A stretch of DNA of 64,000 nucleotides from positions 248,001 to 312,000 of the forward strand of contig NZ_MTCM01000002.1 in NCBI RefSeq assembly GCF_002000245.1. Reading direction: 5' to 3'. The notes below the pieces were generated by a model. That model had not been told where the DNA came from. It ran no database searches and worked only from the letters and a program-made list of their open reading frames with translations. The translations under genes and the position numbers were made by a program. Source of the stretch: Sphingobacterium sp. CZ-UAM (lineage in GTDB: Bacteria > Bacteroidota > Bacteroidia > Sphingobacteriales > Sphingobacteriaceae). This document shows positions 4,540-9,554 of the stretch, piece by piece (positions within the stretch are counted from its first letter, which is position 1; each line of letters starts with the position of its first letter).

Positions 4540-5217
4540 TTATGGTACTCTTGTATAACCAACGTTTCCGATAGCGACATAATTATTGCCTGAAAAAATA
4601 ACGGATACCGAGCTGTAATCGCCAATTGAACAATCATTTGTACCTCTATTCAAGGTGTAAATAGTGCAATTATTTTGGTTATAGCCTTTCCATTTTACAT
4701 CCCCAACGGGGAAGCAACAGCCGATTGACGATGTGACTGTACCCGTTGAGCCATTAAAGGTAATCACTTCATTTCTAACACAGGGTGGGTGTGTAGATGA
4801 ATTAGTTCTTAGCCATTTGCCTACCAGACTATATTGTTTGCAATTGCTGTTGCCTCCACCACCACCGCCGCCTCCATTGCTGCCGGTGAGTTCCATGGTG
4901 TTACAAACACCGGCAGTAAATGTTACGCTGCTTGCCCAAGTAGTTCCATTTGTAGAACTAGCCGTAAAAGAATGGGTACCTTCATACTCTTTGACGTTTA
5001 CATCGGCTTGCCCACAGGTAACACCTCCAGCGTGATAATGTCTGATGGTACCTACTTTTTTCCCTTCGATAAATATATCTATATTACCCAGATCGCTCTT
5101 TGTAAAAAAGGATACCGTTCCTGTATTGTTTTCTTCCACTACGTCCTCGCGTGTGCAAGCATATATCGCTACCACTCCTAAGATAGCTACTAACGATAGA
5201 TATAATACTTTTTTCAT
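4540..5217 (-). CDS. Two-domain lipoprotein with oligo-glycine linker, function unknown
   Basis: I do not recognise a characterised family. The N-terminus is a lipoprotein signal (VAIYAC, Cys21). Residues of about 30-112 form a first beta-rich domain with several Cys (VTCGQADV, GVCNTMEL). A run of nine Gly then acts as a flexible linker, and the C-terminal part begins 'CKQYSLVGKW', resembling the opening strand of lipocalin-like Bacteroidota lipoproteins. This half has a dense set of Cys (CCF, NNCTIY, NDCS), suggesting disulfides in the periplasm or on the surface. It is monocistronic, facing the sulfatase. The Gly tract is coded by similar GGN codons and could be prone to length change. Confidence 0.72.
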   Translation of the reverse strand: MKKVLYLSLVAILGVVAIYACTREDVVEENNTGTVSFFTKSDLGNIDIFIEGKKVGTIRHYHAGGVTCGQADVNVKEYEGTHSFTASSTNGTTWASSVTFTAGVCNTMELTGSNGGGGGGGGNSNCKQYSLVGKWLRTNSSTHPPCVRNEVITFNGSTGTVTSSIGCCFPVGDVKWKGYNQNNCTIYTLNRGTNDCSIGDYSSVSVIFSGNNYVAIGNVGYTRVP

Positions 5218-5598: not shown

Positions 5599-6924
5599 TT
5601 AATCGATTGGTTCCTTTGAAGGAAAGTAAAGATAGACTGTTGTACCTTTTTGGGGTTTAGAATTTATTTGTATGTTGATCTGCAAAAAATCCGCAATGCT
5701 TTTTACGATCGACATACCCAGCCCATTCCCTTTTGAATATTTACTCCTGAAACGTTCGAAAAGGTTCTCTAATTCGGTCGCAGTCATTCCCACTCCGCTA
5801 TCCGAAATTATTATTTGATGATTTGTTCCATCAAAATTATGGGTAATGTTGATCCAACCTTGTGGACGGTTATATATGATTGCATTATTGATCAAATTAT
5901 GGAACAGATGGAAGAGAAGCTCTTCGTGTTGATGGCTTAAGGCAATATCTTTAGGAACCTCAATAGACAGATAAATCTGTTTTTCAGCCATGAGTGGTTC
6001 AAGCTCTTCGGTTACCCTTGTTAGCAATGGTCTGATTAAAACCTTGTGTGTACGCTGGTACTGGCCGCTATCGACGCGTGCCAGGAAGAGCAGTGTTTTA
6101 ACGATCCCGTTCAGACGATCGAGTGTTTGTAACGATGAAAGGAGCTTTTCTTGCAATTCCAGGTTAAGATCTGGCTGGATTAGCATATTTTCTATCTTAC
6201 CTCGCAGGATGCTGATTGGTGTCAGCAGTTCGTGGGAAGCATTGGCGGTAAAATCCTTTTCGCGTGTATAGGCGTGTGTAGCCCTTTGCATAAGGTCGCA
6301 AAGGTGTTCATCCAGCAGGCGGAAGTCTGTTGTCGTCGTTGGGATTGCTTTAAATTCCAGGTCAAATGGAAACTGTTGTTCGGAAAGCCGATAGCGAATA
6401 ATTCGTTGTAACGGGCTCAACAGATGGCGTCCATAAAAATAATCCACGGAGATGGTCAGTAAAAACAATACCATTAAAATAACGAGTGCGACCTGTTGCA
6501 GGATAGCCGCATAAAGTGAGATGCTATGTTGCGATCTACCAATTTCCAATAAGTACATTTTTCCATCCGCTTCAAAAAAGCGATGCAAAATCCGGTAGTT
6601 TAAGGTGTCGCTTTCCACAATGCGCCGCTGATTGTCTATATGTGACGGGCCTAAATCGGAAGAGTCAGCCCTGGCCGTCTGAATGGCAATATAATCTTCT
6701 TTGAGCATGGTATAACTGCCGTAGTTCTGTTCCCCTTGCAGATAGTATTCCATGCCGTTTTCACGGATCTTGTCAAATACTTTGGTCTCTTGGCCATGTA
6801 GGAATCTATCGATGGAGTATTGCGTATACCAACTGAAGACTATCGGCAAGATGCATAAGAAAAAGCCAAAGATCAGCAGTTTCGAAAAAGCAAAATAGAG
6901 CGTAAATTTAGTGTTCAGTTTCAC
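5599..6924 (-). CDS. Membrane sensor histidine kinase (EnvZ/OmpR-type pair)
   Basis: Inner-membrane sensor that phosphorylates the response regulator encoded just upstream. Two membrane segments (about residues 10-30 and 138-160) bracket a roughly 105-residue periplasmic sensor region. The cytoplasmic part has the HisKA H-box 'DFTANASHELLTP' with His231, an N-box around 'HNLINNAIIYNRP' (343-353), G1 'DSGVGM' (375-380) and G2 'GNGLGM' (399-404), so the kinase core is complete at 441 aa. The start is GTG, sharing a GTGA overlap with the regulator's TGA stop, which implies translational coupling. The input signal is unknown; the upstream secreted proteins and barrel-like protein suggest an envelope cue (inference). 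Confidence 0.93.
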   Translation of the reverse strand: MKLNTKFTLYFAFSKLLIFGFFLCILPIVFSWYTQYSIDRFLHGQETKVFDKIRENGMEYYLQGEQNYGSYTMLKEDYIAIQTARADSSDLGPSHIDNQRRIVESDTLNYRILHRFFEADGKMYLLEIGRSQHSISLYAAILQQVALVILMVLFLLTISVDYFYGRHLLSPLQRIIRYRLSEQQFPFDLEFKAIPTTTTDFRLLDEHLCDLMQRATHAYTREKDFTANASHELLTPISILRGKIENMLIQPDLNLELQEKLLSSLQTLDRLNGIVKTLLFLARVDSGQYQRTHKVLIRPLLTRVTEELEPLMAEKQIYLSIEVPKDIALSHQHEELLFHLFHNLINNAIIYNRPQGWINITHNFDGTNHQIIISDSGVGMTATELENLFERFRSKYSKGNGLGMSIVKSIADFLQINIQINSKPQKGTTVYLYFPSKEPID

Positions 6925-7598
6925 GGCAATACAATTTTATAGCCGATTCCCCGAACCGACTGTAGCCAGGGGACAGGTGCAAACACCGACATTTTTTTCC
7001 TGATATTTTTGATATGGACATCAATGTAATTTGAGTCCGTATTCGGAAAGCTCAGGTCTCCCCACACATGCTCGTACAATTGCGAGCGGCTCAAGGGGCG
7101 ATTCTTGTTTAGTAGAAGATAGGTCAGGATATCAAATTCCTTTTTGAAGAGGACGATTTCTTGATCCTGGTAATAAACAGCCCTGTTTTCAATATCAATA
7201 CTAAATTCACCCACCTGTAGTGGCTGAGCGGTATGGCCCAAACGGCGTCGATAGATAGCGAATAGGCGTATGTGCAGTTCGGCCAAGGAGAAAGGTTTGG
7301 GAAGGTAGTCGTCTGCACCATTTTTTAATCCCAGTATGCGGTCTTCAAGAGCACCACGCGCGGAGGCAATCACGACAGCGCTATCCGGGTGATCCGTTCT
7401 GATCATATCCAATAGGTTCATGCCATCTCCATCCGGCAGGCTTAGATCAAGGACTATGGCATCAAAGAAACGATCCCTAAGTACGCGTATCGCATCTGCT
7501 AGGGTTGAGCAAACCTGACAATCGTATTGTTCAAGCCGGAGAAAATCGGTAATTTCCCGGGCCAATTCCGGTTCGTCCTCTACGATAAGTACCTTCAT
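6921..7598 (-). CDS. OmpR/PhoB-family response regulator
   Basis: DNA-binding partner of the downstream histidine kinase. I chose the ATG at 7598 (MKVLIVEDEPEL), because this is the canonical beginning of a receiver domain; a TTG at 7619 directly behind the preceding stop would add seven residues. The receiver has the acidic pair Glu7-Asp8, phosphoacceptor Asp51 in 'IVLDLSLPDGDG' and the conserved Lys in 'YLPKPFSLAE'. The C-terminal winged helix carries 'NRPLSRSQLYEHVWGD' and 'SNYIDVHIKNIRKK', typical of OmpR/PhoB. Length is normal at 225 aa. It lies 21 bp after the barrel-like gene and overlaps the kinase by 4 bp. Confidence 0.94.
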   Translation of the reverse strand: MKVLIVEDEPELAREITDFLRLEQYDCQVCSTLADAIRVLRDRFFDAIVLDLSLPDGDGMNLLDMIRTDHPDSAVVIASARGALEDRILGLKNGADDYLPKPFSLAELHIRLFAIYRRRLGHTAQPLQVGEFSIDIENRAVYYQDQEIVLFKKEFDILTYLLLNKNRPLSRSQLYEHVWGDLSFPNTDSNYIDVHIKNIRKKMSVFAPVPWLQSVRGIGYKIVLP

Positions 7599-7619
7599 AC
7601 CCTTTGCAAATAGCTTCAA

Positions 7620-8477
7620 TTAAAATTGATAAAAATATCCCACATTAAAAAACGAATTATGTTTTTGCTCCGCCGCGGCATTCTTTCCCAGTACCGAGAG
7701 TTGATAGGAGAGTAAGAATGCACCATTGCCATATTGCCAGATCAAGGGAAGCTGAAAATTATAAGACAGCATTTTGAACCCGGTTGACTCAACAGTCGTT
7801 TCCTCATATTCCGGCTTTTGATTGACAGGTGGTAATTTGTCATCCAAAAATCCTGGAAGACCAAGCCTCCTTTCTTTCTCCTCCAGATATGTCGTATAAT
7901 AACGTTGTGTACCGGTGGTCAAGGCGATATTCGGTTTGATATAGAGGAGATCTTTTGACGTAAAACTATGGATATTCACGATTTTGCTATTGGTCAGCGT
8001 TACGAATACATCGTTTTCTTTACCAAAATTGTAATCACCTTCCAGATCGGTCTGAAAGATATGGCTGAATCCCAGTTCAGCTGAAACATTGTTTGGATTG
8101 GAGGCCTGCAACAGGGGAGATTCTTTCTGATAAAAAGAACGCGTATAACCAATGTTCAGGGACAAGGCTTTGTTCAGTTTAAATTCAAATCCCGTTCCCA
8201 CATGAAGCTCGGAAGGAGCGGAGTTTTCTTTCAGCAGCTGGTAGCCACCCGCGGAAATATGCCATCCCGAAGTCGTCAGCATGCGTAGATCTGTATAGGC
8301 AAAGGGAAGTTTCTCCGATGCGGTTTGTCCATAGTAATTGGCATTGTTGCTCAGTAATGTAGTCCAGGTAAACGTCGTTTTCCGGGCTGTACTGTCAGGC
8401 TCTTGGGCAAAACAAGCTACGCTGCCGAATAGTTGAGTAACGGCTAATGCTGCTATCAAAAAATATAGCGTTTTCAT
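7620..8477 (-). CDS. Predicted outer-membrane beta-barrel protein of unknown function
   Basis: The product has a signal peptide cleaved near 'ACFAQ' (residue 25), no lipobox, and many alternating amphipathic strands rich in Tyr, Phe, Asn and Thr ('LSLNIGYTRSFYQ', 'AELGFSHIFQTD'). It ends in '...VGYFYQF', with the terminal Phe expected for outer-membrane barrels. At 285 aa it could form 10-14 strands. I do not recognise a named family. It is the third gene of a five-gene minus-strand operon and abuts the response regulator, so it may be a target, channel or sensing partner of that two-component system (inference from position). Confidence 0.78.
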   Translation of the reverse strand: MKTLYFLIAALAVTQLFGSVACFAQEPDSTARKTTFTWTTLLSNNANYYGQTASEKLPFAYTDLRMLTTSGWHISAGGYQLLKENSAPSELHVGTGFEFKLNKALSLNIGYTRSFYQKESPLLQASNPNNVSAELGFSHIFQTDLEGDYNFGKENDVFVTLTNSKIVNIHSFTSKDLLYIKPNIALTTGTQRYYTTYLEEKERRLGLPGFLDDKLPPVNQKPEYEETTVESTGFKMLSYNFQLPLIWQYGNGAFLLSYQLSVLGKNAAAEQKHNSFFNVGYFYQF

Positions 8478-8489
8478 GGAAATAGATGC

Positions 8490-8810
8490 TTAAAGTTTTA
8501 TCCTAATTTTTGTGTTGATCTTTGTTTTCACTTTTACCCGAACATCAGGGTTCACCGAATTAATTCGAGGTATTACAGGGCGGGGGATCTGTTGATTGCG
8601 AGCCTTGGGTACAGATTTTATTACTTTTTCTTTCGTTTGGCTAACAGTTTCTTTGGCCTGACTGGCTGGCCGGTTAGCTTCCTCGTGCTTTTGTTTTGAG
8701 GATGCCGACTGTGCAATAGTATCCTGTGGGATAGCTGCTGTAGCGACGCCGATCCGTATAGCGAAAATTAGTAAAGCTGTAAACCATGCCTTGTGAAACA
8801 TACTGCTCAT
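8490..8810 (-). CDS. Small secreted protein with basic C-terminal tail
   Basis: A predicted secreted protein of about 106 aa. The hydrophobic N-terminus ends near 'GVATAA'. A Gln/Ser/Lys-rich, probably disordered or helical middle follows, then a strikingly basic tail 'VRVKVKTKINTKIRIKL' with alternating Lys/Arg and beta-branched residues. I use the ATG at 8810; a TTG at 8819 or ATG at 8801 is also possible. The tail resembles the end of the next upstream gene's product (NVRTNTKIRTGVGIK). The gene lies 12 bp before the barrel-like gene. No known family was recognised; surface association or membrane/LPS contact by the cationic tail is only a guess. Confidence 0.65.
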   Translation of the reverse strand: MSSMFHKAWFTALLIFAIRIGVATAAIPQDTIAQSASSKQKHEEANRPASQAKETVSQTKEKVIKSVPKARNQQIPRPVIPRINSVNPDVRVKVKTKINTKIRIKL

Positions 8811-8866
8811 TCTGATCAATCTAACTTTGAACTAATGACTTCAGCTCAAAGTTAGATTTTATCTGC

Positions 8867-9460
8867 TTATTTAATACCCACTCCGGTACGAATTTTCGTA
8901 TTTGTACGCACATTGGTTGAGTTTACGTCAATTTTTGTTTTGGCATTGACGTTTGCCTTTACATTGGGGGTACTTTTGACCGCCGCTTGTGTAGCAACAT
9001 CCACTGTTTTTACTGCAGCGTGAGCCTGCCCTACGGAAGAGGCGACAGTGCTTACTGTACTTCCTTTAACATCTGATGCAATATCTGATTTAGCGACAGT
9101 GCTTACAGCAGCACCATGATTATCCGGATGCTCGGTTTTTGCATCTATTTTACCAGCTGTGGCTAATTCGCTGACAGCTTTGCCTGTTTCAGCTCCGGAT
9201 ACCGTTTTTGTCAATTGGCTTACCGCTGTTTTGCCTTTTGATTCAGCAGCATCTATTGATTGAGCAACTTCTTGTTTGCCCCTGATTTCTTGTTCGACCA
9301 CCCCATTTCCTTCCGCTTTCAACGTTGCAGTTTTTTTTGATTTATTGTTCTGCAAGGTAGTTTCTGCGCTTTGCGATGAATGAACTTTAGATTTTGTTTC
9401 CTGTGCCATCCCTGTTGTACCTAGCAACAAGCCGATGGCTAATAATCCCAAAATTTTCAT
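8867..9460 (-). CDS. Secreted low-complexity repeat protein with basic C-terminal tail
   Basis: First gene of the two-component operon, 197 aa. A signal peptide ends at 'TTGMAQ'. The body is Ala/Lys/Thr/Val/Ser-rich and carries a degenerate repeat of the form (A/T)VSx(L/V)xx (AVSQLTK, AVSELAT, AVSTVAK, TVSTVAS). The end is basic, 'NVRTNTKIRTGVGIK', and recalls the tail of the following gene. It has no Cys, no membrane segment after the signal and no recognisable enzyme motif. It is likely to be an extended or helical periplasmic/secreted protein. Its place upstream of a barrel-like protein and a sensor pair suggests an accessory envelope component. Confidence 0.68.
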   Translation of the reverse strand: MKILGLLAIGLLLGTTGMAQETKSKVHSSQSAETTLQNNKSKKTATLKAEGNGVVEQEIRGKQEVAQSIDAAESKGKTAVSQLTKTVSGAETGKAVSELATAGKIDAKTEHPDNHGAAVSTVAKSDIASDVKGSTVSTVASSVGQAHAAVKTVDVATQAAVKSTPNVKANVNAKTKIDVNSTNVRTNTKIRTGVGIK

Positions 9461-9478: not shown

Positions 9479-9486
9479 CAAAGCTA
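9479..9486 (-). promoter_or_regulatory. Candidate -7 promoter box of the two-component operon
   Basis: The minus strand reads TAGCTTTG, an exact TAnnTTTG match, 19 bp before the ATG of the first operon gene. That leaves a short leader of about a dozen bases. No clear TTTG is seen at the -33 spacing, so confidence is modest. Confidence 0.35.
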
Positions 9487-9554
9487 AACGCCGATTATGA
9501 AAAAAAAATGAAATCTTTAATCTGAATAAAAAATCTCAGTGGGACTCAATTTGA

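Follow-up and report, generated by a model that had tools for sequence, protein, structure and literature searches.

The question raised by a five-gene operon of Sphingobacterium sp. CZ-UAM is why two small exported proteins (here called A and B) and a predicted outer-membrane beta-barrel are encoded directly ahead of a two-component pair, and which of these parts belong together. The operon lies in a 64,000-nucleotide stretch of contig NZ_MTCM01000002.1 (positions 248,001 to 312,000, forward strand), referred to as the window, within a genome of 5.84 Mb. From the comparisons presented here it is clear that B, the response regulator (RR) and the sensor histidine kinase (HK) are inherited together, and that the content and order of the operon, which recurs in 68 named loci, go beyond chance. 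In the alignments what is conserved of B is an internal motif of 13 residues and not the tail, and we infer that B is best read as an accessory protein of the kinase, cationic and disordered.

All five open reading frames (ORFs) are present on the minus strand from 9460 to 5599, in the order A, B, barrel, RR and HK, with 56 bp between A and B, 12 bp between B and the barrel gene, 21 bp between the barrel gene and RR, and a 4-bp overlap of RR and HK when the likelier ATG starts of B (8810) and RR (7598) are used. This bears out the initial annotation, which had described five collinear genes with small gaps or overlaps. The features of the locus are as follows (AF2, AlphaFold2 model; dN/dS, ratio of non-synonymous to synonymous substitution rates; aa, amino acids).

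5599-6924, minus strand: sensor histidine kinase HK, 441 aa, GTG start (Pfam, NCBIfam, AF2, structure comparison)
6921-7598, minus strand: OmpR/PhoB-type response regulator RR, the ATG at 7598 being likelier than the TTG at 7619 (Pfam, synteny)
7620-8477, minus strand: predicted 12-stranded outer-membrane beta-barrel, 285 aa, C-terminal Phe, a usual but dispensable part (AF2, structural matches)
8490-8810, minus strand: protein B, 106 aa with the likelier ATG start at 8810 (as against a TTG at 8819), exported, cationic, predicted disordered (synteny, charge, dN/dS)
8583-8621, minus strand: 13-residue motif conserved in B, IKSVPKARNQQIP, at residues 64-76 counted from the ATG (alignment of 86 B proteins)
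8493-8543, minus strand: basic alternating tail of B, variable across clades (sequence)
8867-9460, minus strand: protein A, 197 aa, exported, low-complexity, an optional part (ORF, loci survey, dN/dS)
9479-9512, minus strand: predicted RR box and promoter, TTCATTTT-TTT-TTCAT, 14 bp, TTTG (-7-type element) (pattern scan)

Recurrence of the operon and of its parts

A barrel-profile scan of named genomes gave the 68 loci, each of which has a barrel because the barrel seeded the scan. They include Pedobacter, Daejeonella, Solitalea, Olivibacter, Albibacterium, Pelobium, Desertivirga, Chitinophaga and Flavihumibacter, and four come from records labelled Sphingobacterium. B stands immediately upstream of the barrel gene in all 68, at a spacing that runs from a 29-bp overlap to a 69-bp gap, the RR is found directly downstream of it in 67 (66 by the first rule, plus L062 on re-inspection), and the HK is present in 66, with the missing RR (L040) and HK (L037, L040) falling at contig ends. 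A or an A-like protein was found by script and by eye in about 29/68 loci, the undecided loci L073, L088, L083 and L096 being scored as lacking it. Absence or lack of linkage of the small proteins in related genomes, named at the outset as a ground for refutation, did not apply to B, and A is lacking in many loci. The wider claim that these genes make up one unit was well founded, as they are co-inherited and co-oriented beside an OmpR-type pair and have a putative regulatory box of their own.

We expanded the comparison to the genus, the family and the phylum. Within the genus, the barrel and B were each detected in 3/93 genomes, which are the same three (G000, G139 and G191), and the kinase sensor in four (E <= 1e-10), i.e. 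these three at full length and G064 with a partial match (4e-11) to the membrane-proximal part only. In the family draw the sensor profile matched 64/121 genomes at E <= 1e-20, 49 of them at 225 bits or more and the others at 169 bits or less. The B profile matched 39 of the 121 genomes, all of which are among the 49 with the kinase and have B within about 2.5 kb of it, and inspection by eye of the remaining ten kinase genomes (G014, G022, G025, G036, G051, G062, G082, G101, G106 and G116) identified a B-like gene with the motif upstream, so that 49/49 family genomes with the kinase carry B beside it. No B-like ORF of at least 60 aa was seen in the stretch read upstream of the RR for the weaker kinases L231-L234 (139-169 bits), and in L245 (144 bits) an aminotransferase occupies the place of B; G597 (L243) and G417 (L244), with 152-175 bits, were left out of this reading. 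In the phylum draw the sensor was found in 11/395 genomes (E <= 1e-40), eight of them from the family of the window itself, so the system is confined to part of the Bacteroidota. In G381, from another family, B also lies ahead of a barrel, RR and kinase. The B motif and the kinase subfamily are present in the Sphingobacteriaceae, the Chitinophagaceae and at least one further family.

With regard to the barrel, a single-sequence search matched 44/121 genomes of the family draw (G002 weakly, E 8e-7), 43 of which fall among the 49 kinase genomes. A match was absent in the other six kinase genomes (G020, G022, G025, G041, G045 and G055), and in these six loci, as in the second kinase locus of G012, B was read immediately before the RR. 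As B is kept in all six, the constant pair is B and the kinase. A maximum likelihood tree of 62 kinases, all with B, requires at least four changes of barrel presence, and the well-supported branches alone force four. The barrel was accordingly rejected as the core of the unit, since it comes and goes and B stays. In G113 (L031:1238-2088) the barrel gene is interrupted and B, RR and HK are apparently intact, which may be a sequencing error or a fresh loss, and in the barrel-less G045 the response regulator (L221:2627-3148) is split over two frames, either by error or as a pseudogene.

In the kinase tree the window groups with Sphingobacterium sp. xlx-96, whose kinase is the nearest, with S. 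olei and with one of two Pedobacter nyackensis copies, and G045 forms the next branch. These trees used 45 of the 68 named kinases, L220 being absent; the first has long branches that make the placement of L247 and L246 unsure, and six rows lacking B were dropped for the second. P. nyackensis has two operon copies (L036 and L045) from distant clades, one adjoining the Sphingobacterium type, and these unlike copies together with the 3/93 distribution in the genus suggest transfer. Base composition gave no signal of a recent foreign origin, the GC content being 0.431 in the operon and 0.425 in the window.

The genes at the operon head vary. Most Pedobacter loci have a divergent DUF4382-type lipoprotein gene in place of A, identified by Pfam in one locus (L042:4617-5420, minus strand) and judged from sequence in the others, and a small Tyr-rich secreted protein (L042:4059-4574, minus strand) is likewise divergent to the operon in most of them; the DUF4382-type gene often has a copy of the box of its own. 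In genus g15 (L226:1133-2068, plus strand, and L227, L228, L229, L230, L235 and L236) an ApbE-type gene, supported by Pfam for L226 only, lies upstream of B, and with a box core before it in 7/7 loci read it may head the operon. In three barrel-less loci (L223:1078-1965, plus strand, L224 and L225) a PepSY-like lipoprotein gene precedes B and is itself preceded by a box core, the PepSY-like assignment coming from Pfam in L223 and L225 and being just under the cut-off in L224. These variable head genes suggest envelope tasks and no single pathway. Downstream of the operon in the window, at 4540-5217 on the minus strand, lies a gene for a lipoprotein-like protein with a Gly run and no Pfam match.

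Protein B, its motif and the kinase sensor

Proteins A, B and the barrel had no Pfam match above cut-off. The N-termini of B and A resemble signal peptides by eye, and the last 75 residues of B have a net charge of +5 to +18 across the 68 loci. Alignment of 86 B proteins gave the motif consensus [IV]-K-[EQK]-[VI]-[PA]-[KR]-[AST]-[RK]-x-x-x-[KR]-P. Columns 1, 4, 5 and 13 are constrained by the rule used in the search, which in at least one locus (L042) took a second, wrong match. In the columns left free by the rule, 76 of the 86 proteins have K at column 2, 80 have K/R at 6, 80 have A/S/T at 7, 72 have R/K at 8 and 77 have K/R at 12. The loose rule also matches 26/665 other small ORFs of the loci, while the strict form K.[VI][PA][KR][AST][RK]...[KR]P is found in 44/68 B proteins and in 0/665 of these ORFs; the B of the window (IKSVPKARNQQIP) has the loose form and falls outside the strict one. 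In alignment A4 (49 rows) two invariant columns and one nearly invariant column were found, all inside the motif and none in the tail.

The tail of B is basic in the clade of the window, rich in Lys and Pro in Pedobacter and different elsewhere, and in L219, L220 and L222 it is reduced to a few residues with the internal motif retained. In G020, G041 and G055 only the signal peptide, linker and motif of B remain. A unit founded on the barrel and on cationic tails that insert in the outer membrane, as the initial annotation had suggested, is not supported, as the barrel is missing where B stays and the tail varies where the motif is kept. Both small proteins are under constraint, with dN lower than dS in 33/33 close pairs of B and in 12/12 of A, although such close pairs are not mutually independent.

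Protein A is of low complexity, with HGxxVS..A.S and KGxxVSxVAS repeats and a tail (NTKIRTGVGIK) that resembles that of B (NTKIRIKL). Used as a query among 59 relatives at E up to 1, it gave three matches, to its own genome, to G139 (6e-4) and, poorly, to G140. The tail that A and B were said to share is real in the clade of the window, where both tails alternate I/V/L with K/R/T, but across clades the two tails of one locus are only modestly more alike than shuffled pairs. At tail lengths of 8, 12, 16 and 20 residues the p values were 0.072, 0.008, 0.031 and 0.014 with 20 representatives, 0.085, 0.032, 0.021 and 0.015 with 11, and 0.32, 0.050, 0.14 and 0.025 with 29, which points weakly to co-variation of the tails.

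The kinase consists of a transmembrane helix, a periplasmic PAS/sCache-like sensor (about residues 33-131), a second transmembrane helix, and HisKA (1.9e-10) and HATPase_c (3.3e-21) domains, and the RR has Response_reg (6.3e-25) and Trans_reg_C (7.4e-21) domains, both over the cut-off and as expected for the OmpR/PhoB type; the response regulator and kinase with periplasmic sensor region noted at the outset are thereby confirmed. The AF2 model of HK residues 1-225 shows a long helix, the PAS/sCache-like sensor and the second transmembrane helix (mean predicted local distance difference test score, pLDDT, 82.9). In a structure comparison with VIA the best matches of the sensor were a WalK model at Z 10.4 and the sensor of TlpB at Z 9.2 (114 residues superposed at 2.3 A); according to the warning of the tool, such values can be common for helical models. 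Foldseek alone gave no match for this model at E <= 0.001, and no solved relative of the sensor was found by sequence at E up to 0.01. The N-terminus of the kinase is well conserved (mean column identity 68%), and the 62 B-linked kinases keep Q45, G57, Y61 and the loop 68-72, which are mostly absent in six kinases lacking B. As judged from this pattern, these positions are candidate contact sites for B.

Membership of the PorXY system of type IX secretion was considered and rejected. PorX has a PglZ-type output and no DNA-binding domain. As in PorY-PorX, the HK aligns over almost the full length of the NCBIfam PorY model (NF052314), but its 222.6 bits are below the cut-off of 350, and the RR is of the DNA-binding OmpR type, with Trans_reg_C and no PglZ match listed. 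Another kinase of the same genome reaches 500.5 bits against this model, and two other full-length matches in the genome belong, by eye, to other operons (with a PepSY-like secreted protein and with efflux-type genes) and not to a B operon.

A putative response regulator box ahead of the operon

The first gene is preceded by an 11-bp direct repeat, TTCAT-N6-TTCAT (consensus tTTCATcTTa.tTTCAT.TT), and TTTG, which we take to be the end of a Bacteroidota -7 element, comes after it at an almost constant spacing (14 bp in the window). Tandem direct repeats of about 11 bp are found at promoters controlled by OmpR/PhoB-type regulators, and the repeat seen here is of this type. The string used for Bacteroides promoters is TAnnTTTG. 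We searched the upstream regions of 67 of the 68 named loci and of the window, L073 being dropped since its upstream stretch was too short. The box core was found in 61/68 of these regions and the full pattern in 44/68, and the reversed regions had neither; after mononucleotide shuffling the core appeared in 0.19 regions on average and in two at most. The full pattern also occurs on the other strand in 29/68 regions, where it faces the DUF4382 gene in the loci read. Ahead of the operon head in further loci, a box (core or full, mostly in loose form) was found in 11/14. Scans for consensus promoters and terminators gave counts not above those of shuffled sequences.

The full pattern occurs once in the whole genome of the window, at 9479-9512, and not in its control. 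Among 25 barrel-bearing genomes it was found in 23 (none in G191 and G086), with 36 matches as compared to one in the control, 23 of them at the operon and 13 elsewhere. Some of these 13 stand before the gene of a DUF4382 paralogue, of a secreted Tyr-rich protein or of a lipoprotein, and the remainder are apparently unrelated. A small Tyr/His-rich secreted protein encoded elsewhere in G066 (L118/L152, G066:C1:4196372) has a full box just before its start, and in G076 (L145, G076:C117:279375) the box lies ahead of a protein start that is similar. The single full box in the genome and the core in 61/68 upstream regions make it likely that the operon is autoregulated by its own RR, which is the simplest reading of the pattern.

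Proposed mechanism, alternatives and known systems

We propose that B, RR and HK form a self-contained, autoregulated signalling unit in which B is the switch or the signal carrier of the kinase, with the barrel usually and A often added, a model to which we give an even chance. The operon is likely to be one transcript under the control of its own RR. B would be exported to the periplasm and remain unfolded there, and its 13-residue motif would dock on the PAS/sCache-like sensor domain, the docked B setting the balance of kinase and phosphatase activities much as CpxP does for CpxA. The cationic tail of B, and of A where it has a similar tail, would couple to the outer envelope, either directly or via the barrel, and an envelope partner such as an anionic outer-membrane lipid or a misassembled barrel would compete for B. 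Once B has been removed or supplied in this way, the RR would bind the TTCAT-N6-TTCAT box and reset the levels of the five operon products (A, B, barrel, RR and HK) and also, in Pedobacter, of the divergent DUF4382 lipoprotein.

A number of points weigh against this model. The box core is absent from seven of the 68 upstream regions (L045, L061, L086, L088, L089, L094 and L097), there is no box in L219, L220 and L222 among the further loci, and binding of the RR to the box is putative, its position and repeat form being the sole grounds. B and HK are adjacent genes, so shared inheritance alone explains part of their co-occurrence, and B could merely be a cotranscribed output gene. The barrel absences come from a single-sequence search and locus reading, and a diverged barrel elsewhere is possible. 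The sensor is not consistently acidic, its net charge, roughly estimated from a fixed residue window, averaging -1.2 with a range of -9 to +7 in 66 loci, and this mixed charge does not favour a simple electrostatic dock of B; as the barrel is near neutral (mean -0.5), an electrostatic match of B to either was rejected. Lastly, an AF2 model in which B was joined to the barrel through the stop codon gives B no structure (pLDDT 31 to 43 per block of ten), which for the complex of B and barrel first envisaged is weak evidence either way.

The alternative that survives best, which we still consider unlikely, is that B and A are outputs, i.e. cationic or low-complexity surface proteins exported via the barrel, and that the kinase pair regulates its own neighbours. 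The box stands before A and B, A is repetitive and of low complexity, and the barrel resembles 12-stranded barrels that pass polypeptides. As the initial annotation had it, the third protein is barrel-like and ends in Phe (C-terminus FYQF), and its AF2 model has 12 strands, mostly with pLDDT over 90. In VIA it matched 12-stranded barrels with a wide variety of functions at Z 16-19 and 7-10% sequence identity, autotransporter domains reaching 19.2 and FapF 16.6, and no solved relative was found by sequence in the PDB at E up to 1. The likeness to FapF and autotransporter barrels is thus one of strand number and shape in a predicted model, and we saw no further component of a Fap or autotransporter system in the loci read. 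However, solute porins such as KdgM (16.8) reach the same Z range, with OmpG lower at 13, so the fold says little on function, and part of the autotransporter match stems from the signal peptide of the barrel itself, which was modelled at low confidence and, judging from the aligned range, probably lies in the lumen. Moreover, B survives the loss of the barrel, and it then keeps its internal motif rather than its bulk.

A role of B, and perhaps of A, as a secreted pheromone peptide is improbable; in this reading the basic C-terminal part would be released, the kinase of the releasing cell or of its neighbours would sense it, and the operon would be under positive feedback. An exported precursor with a dibasic motif, a dedicated kinase, a putative autoregulatory box and some likeness of the A and B tails within a locus would all suit such a role, but the conserved N-terminus of the kinase lacks the hypervariable region needed for specificity groups, no processing or transport gene besides the barrel recurs in the loci read, and the conserved part of B is the motif and not the tail.

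RcsF is a sensor protein, basic and unstructured, that has an outer-membrane barrel as its partner. A similar arrangement, in which B threads through or blocks the barrel and is shifted to the kinase upon damage to the surface, is in keeping with an unstructured B, rich in Lys and Pro, that adjoins a predicted 12-stranded barrel in all 68 barrel loci, but seems very doubtful, because B and the kinase persist without the barrel (although an unrelated barrel could serve in the six genomes concerned) through at least four changes of its presence on the tree, no lipobox is seen in B by eye, B stays unordered in the joined model, and the operon has an ordinary HK-RR pair and no phosphorelay. That unrelated small exported proteins lie by chance beside a two-component pair is next to impossible, for although low-complexity proteins give weak matches by nature and A matched only 3/59 relatives, it is countered by the constraint on A and B and, for B, refuted by the 68/68 synteny and the exclusive co-occurrence with the kinase.

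Two-component systems with an accessory protein are already known, and the operon with its B-RR-HK unit is a distinct variant of them. The CpxA system has an OmpR-type regulator and a PAS-type sensor. CpxP of the E. coli CpxP-CpxA-CpxR system is a small periplasmic protein that acts on a sensor kinase, and its positive charges matter for binding CpxA (PMC4160245); B is likewise proposed to be a small periplasmic protein that acts on its kinase. Unlike CpxP, B is predicted to be disordered, has no Pfam match at E up to 1 and so none to the CpxP/Spy family, and is encoded in the kinase's own operon, usually with a barrel adjoining. QseG, which activates QseE (PMC12691602), is likewise an envelope accessory protein encoded in the kinase gene cluster and bridging toward the outer membrane, but it is an outer-membrane lipoprotein, whereas B is cationic and has no lipobox by eye. 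By analogy, B-RR-HK may work like CpxP/CpxA or QseG/QseE, being a member of neither family. A published description of this operon was not found among the titles and abstract starts of the open-licence literature.

To our knowledge, few accessory proteins of sensor kinases are understood. CpxP and QseG are folded or lipid-anchored proteobacterial proteins, as opposed to the predicted disordered B. We tentatively suggest, at somewhat less than even confidence, that B may represent a new accessory class, in which an unfolded periplasmic protein with a single motif has been the dedicated ligand of one kinase subfamily throughout its history, and the barrel, A and the head genes (DUF4382, ApbE, PepSY-like) have been swapped around it as interchangeable inputs or outputs. 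Evolution has already dissected the unit, in that barrel, tail and A come and go and a short motif stays with one kinase subfamily, which shifts the emphasis from the barrel and the tails to the internal motif of B and the kinase. With a defined peptide, a sensor domain and a promoter box, the signal of a Bacteroidota envelope system becomes directly testable.

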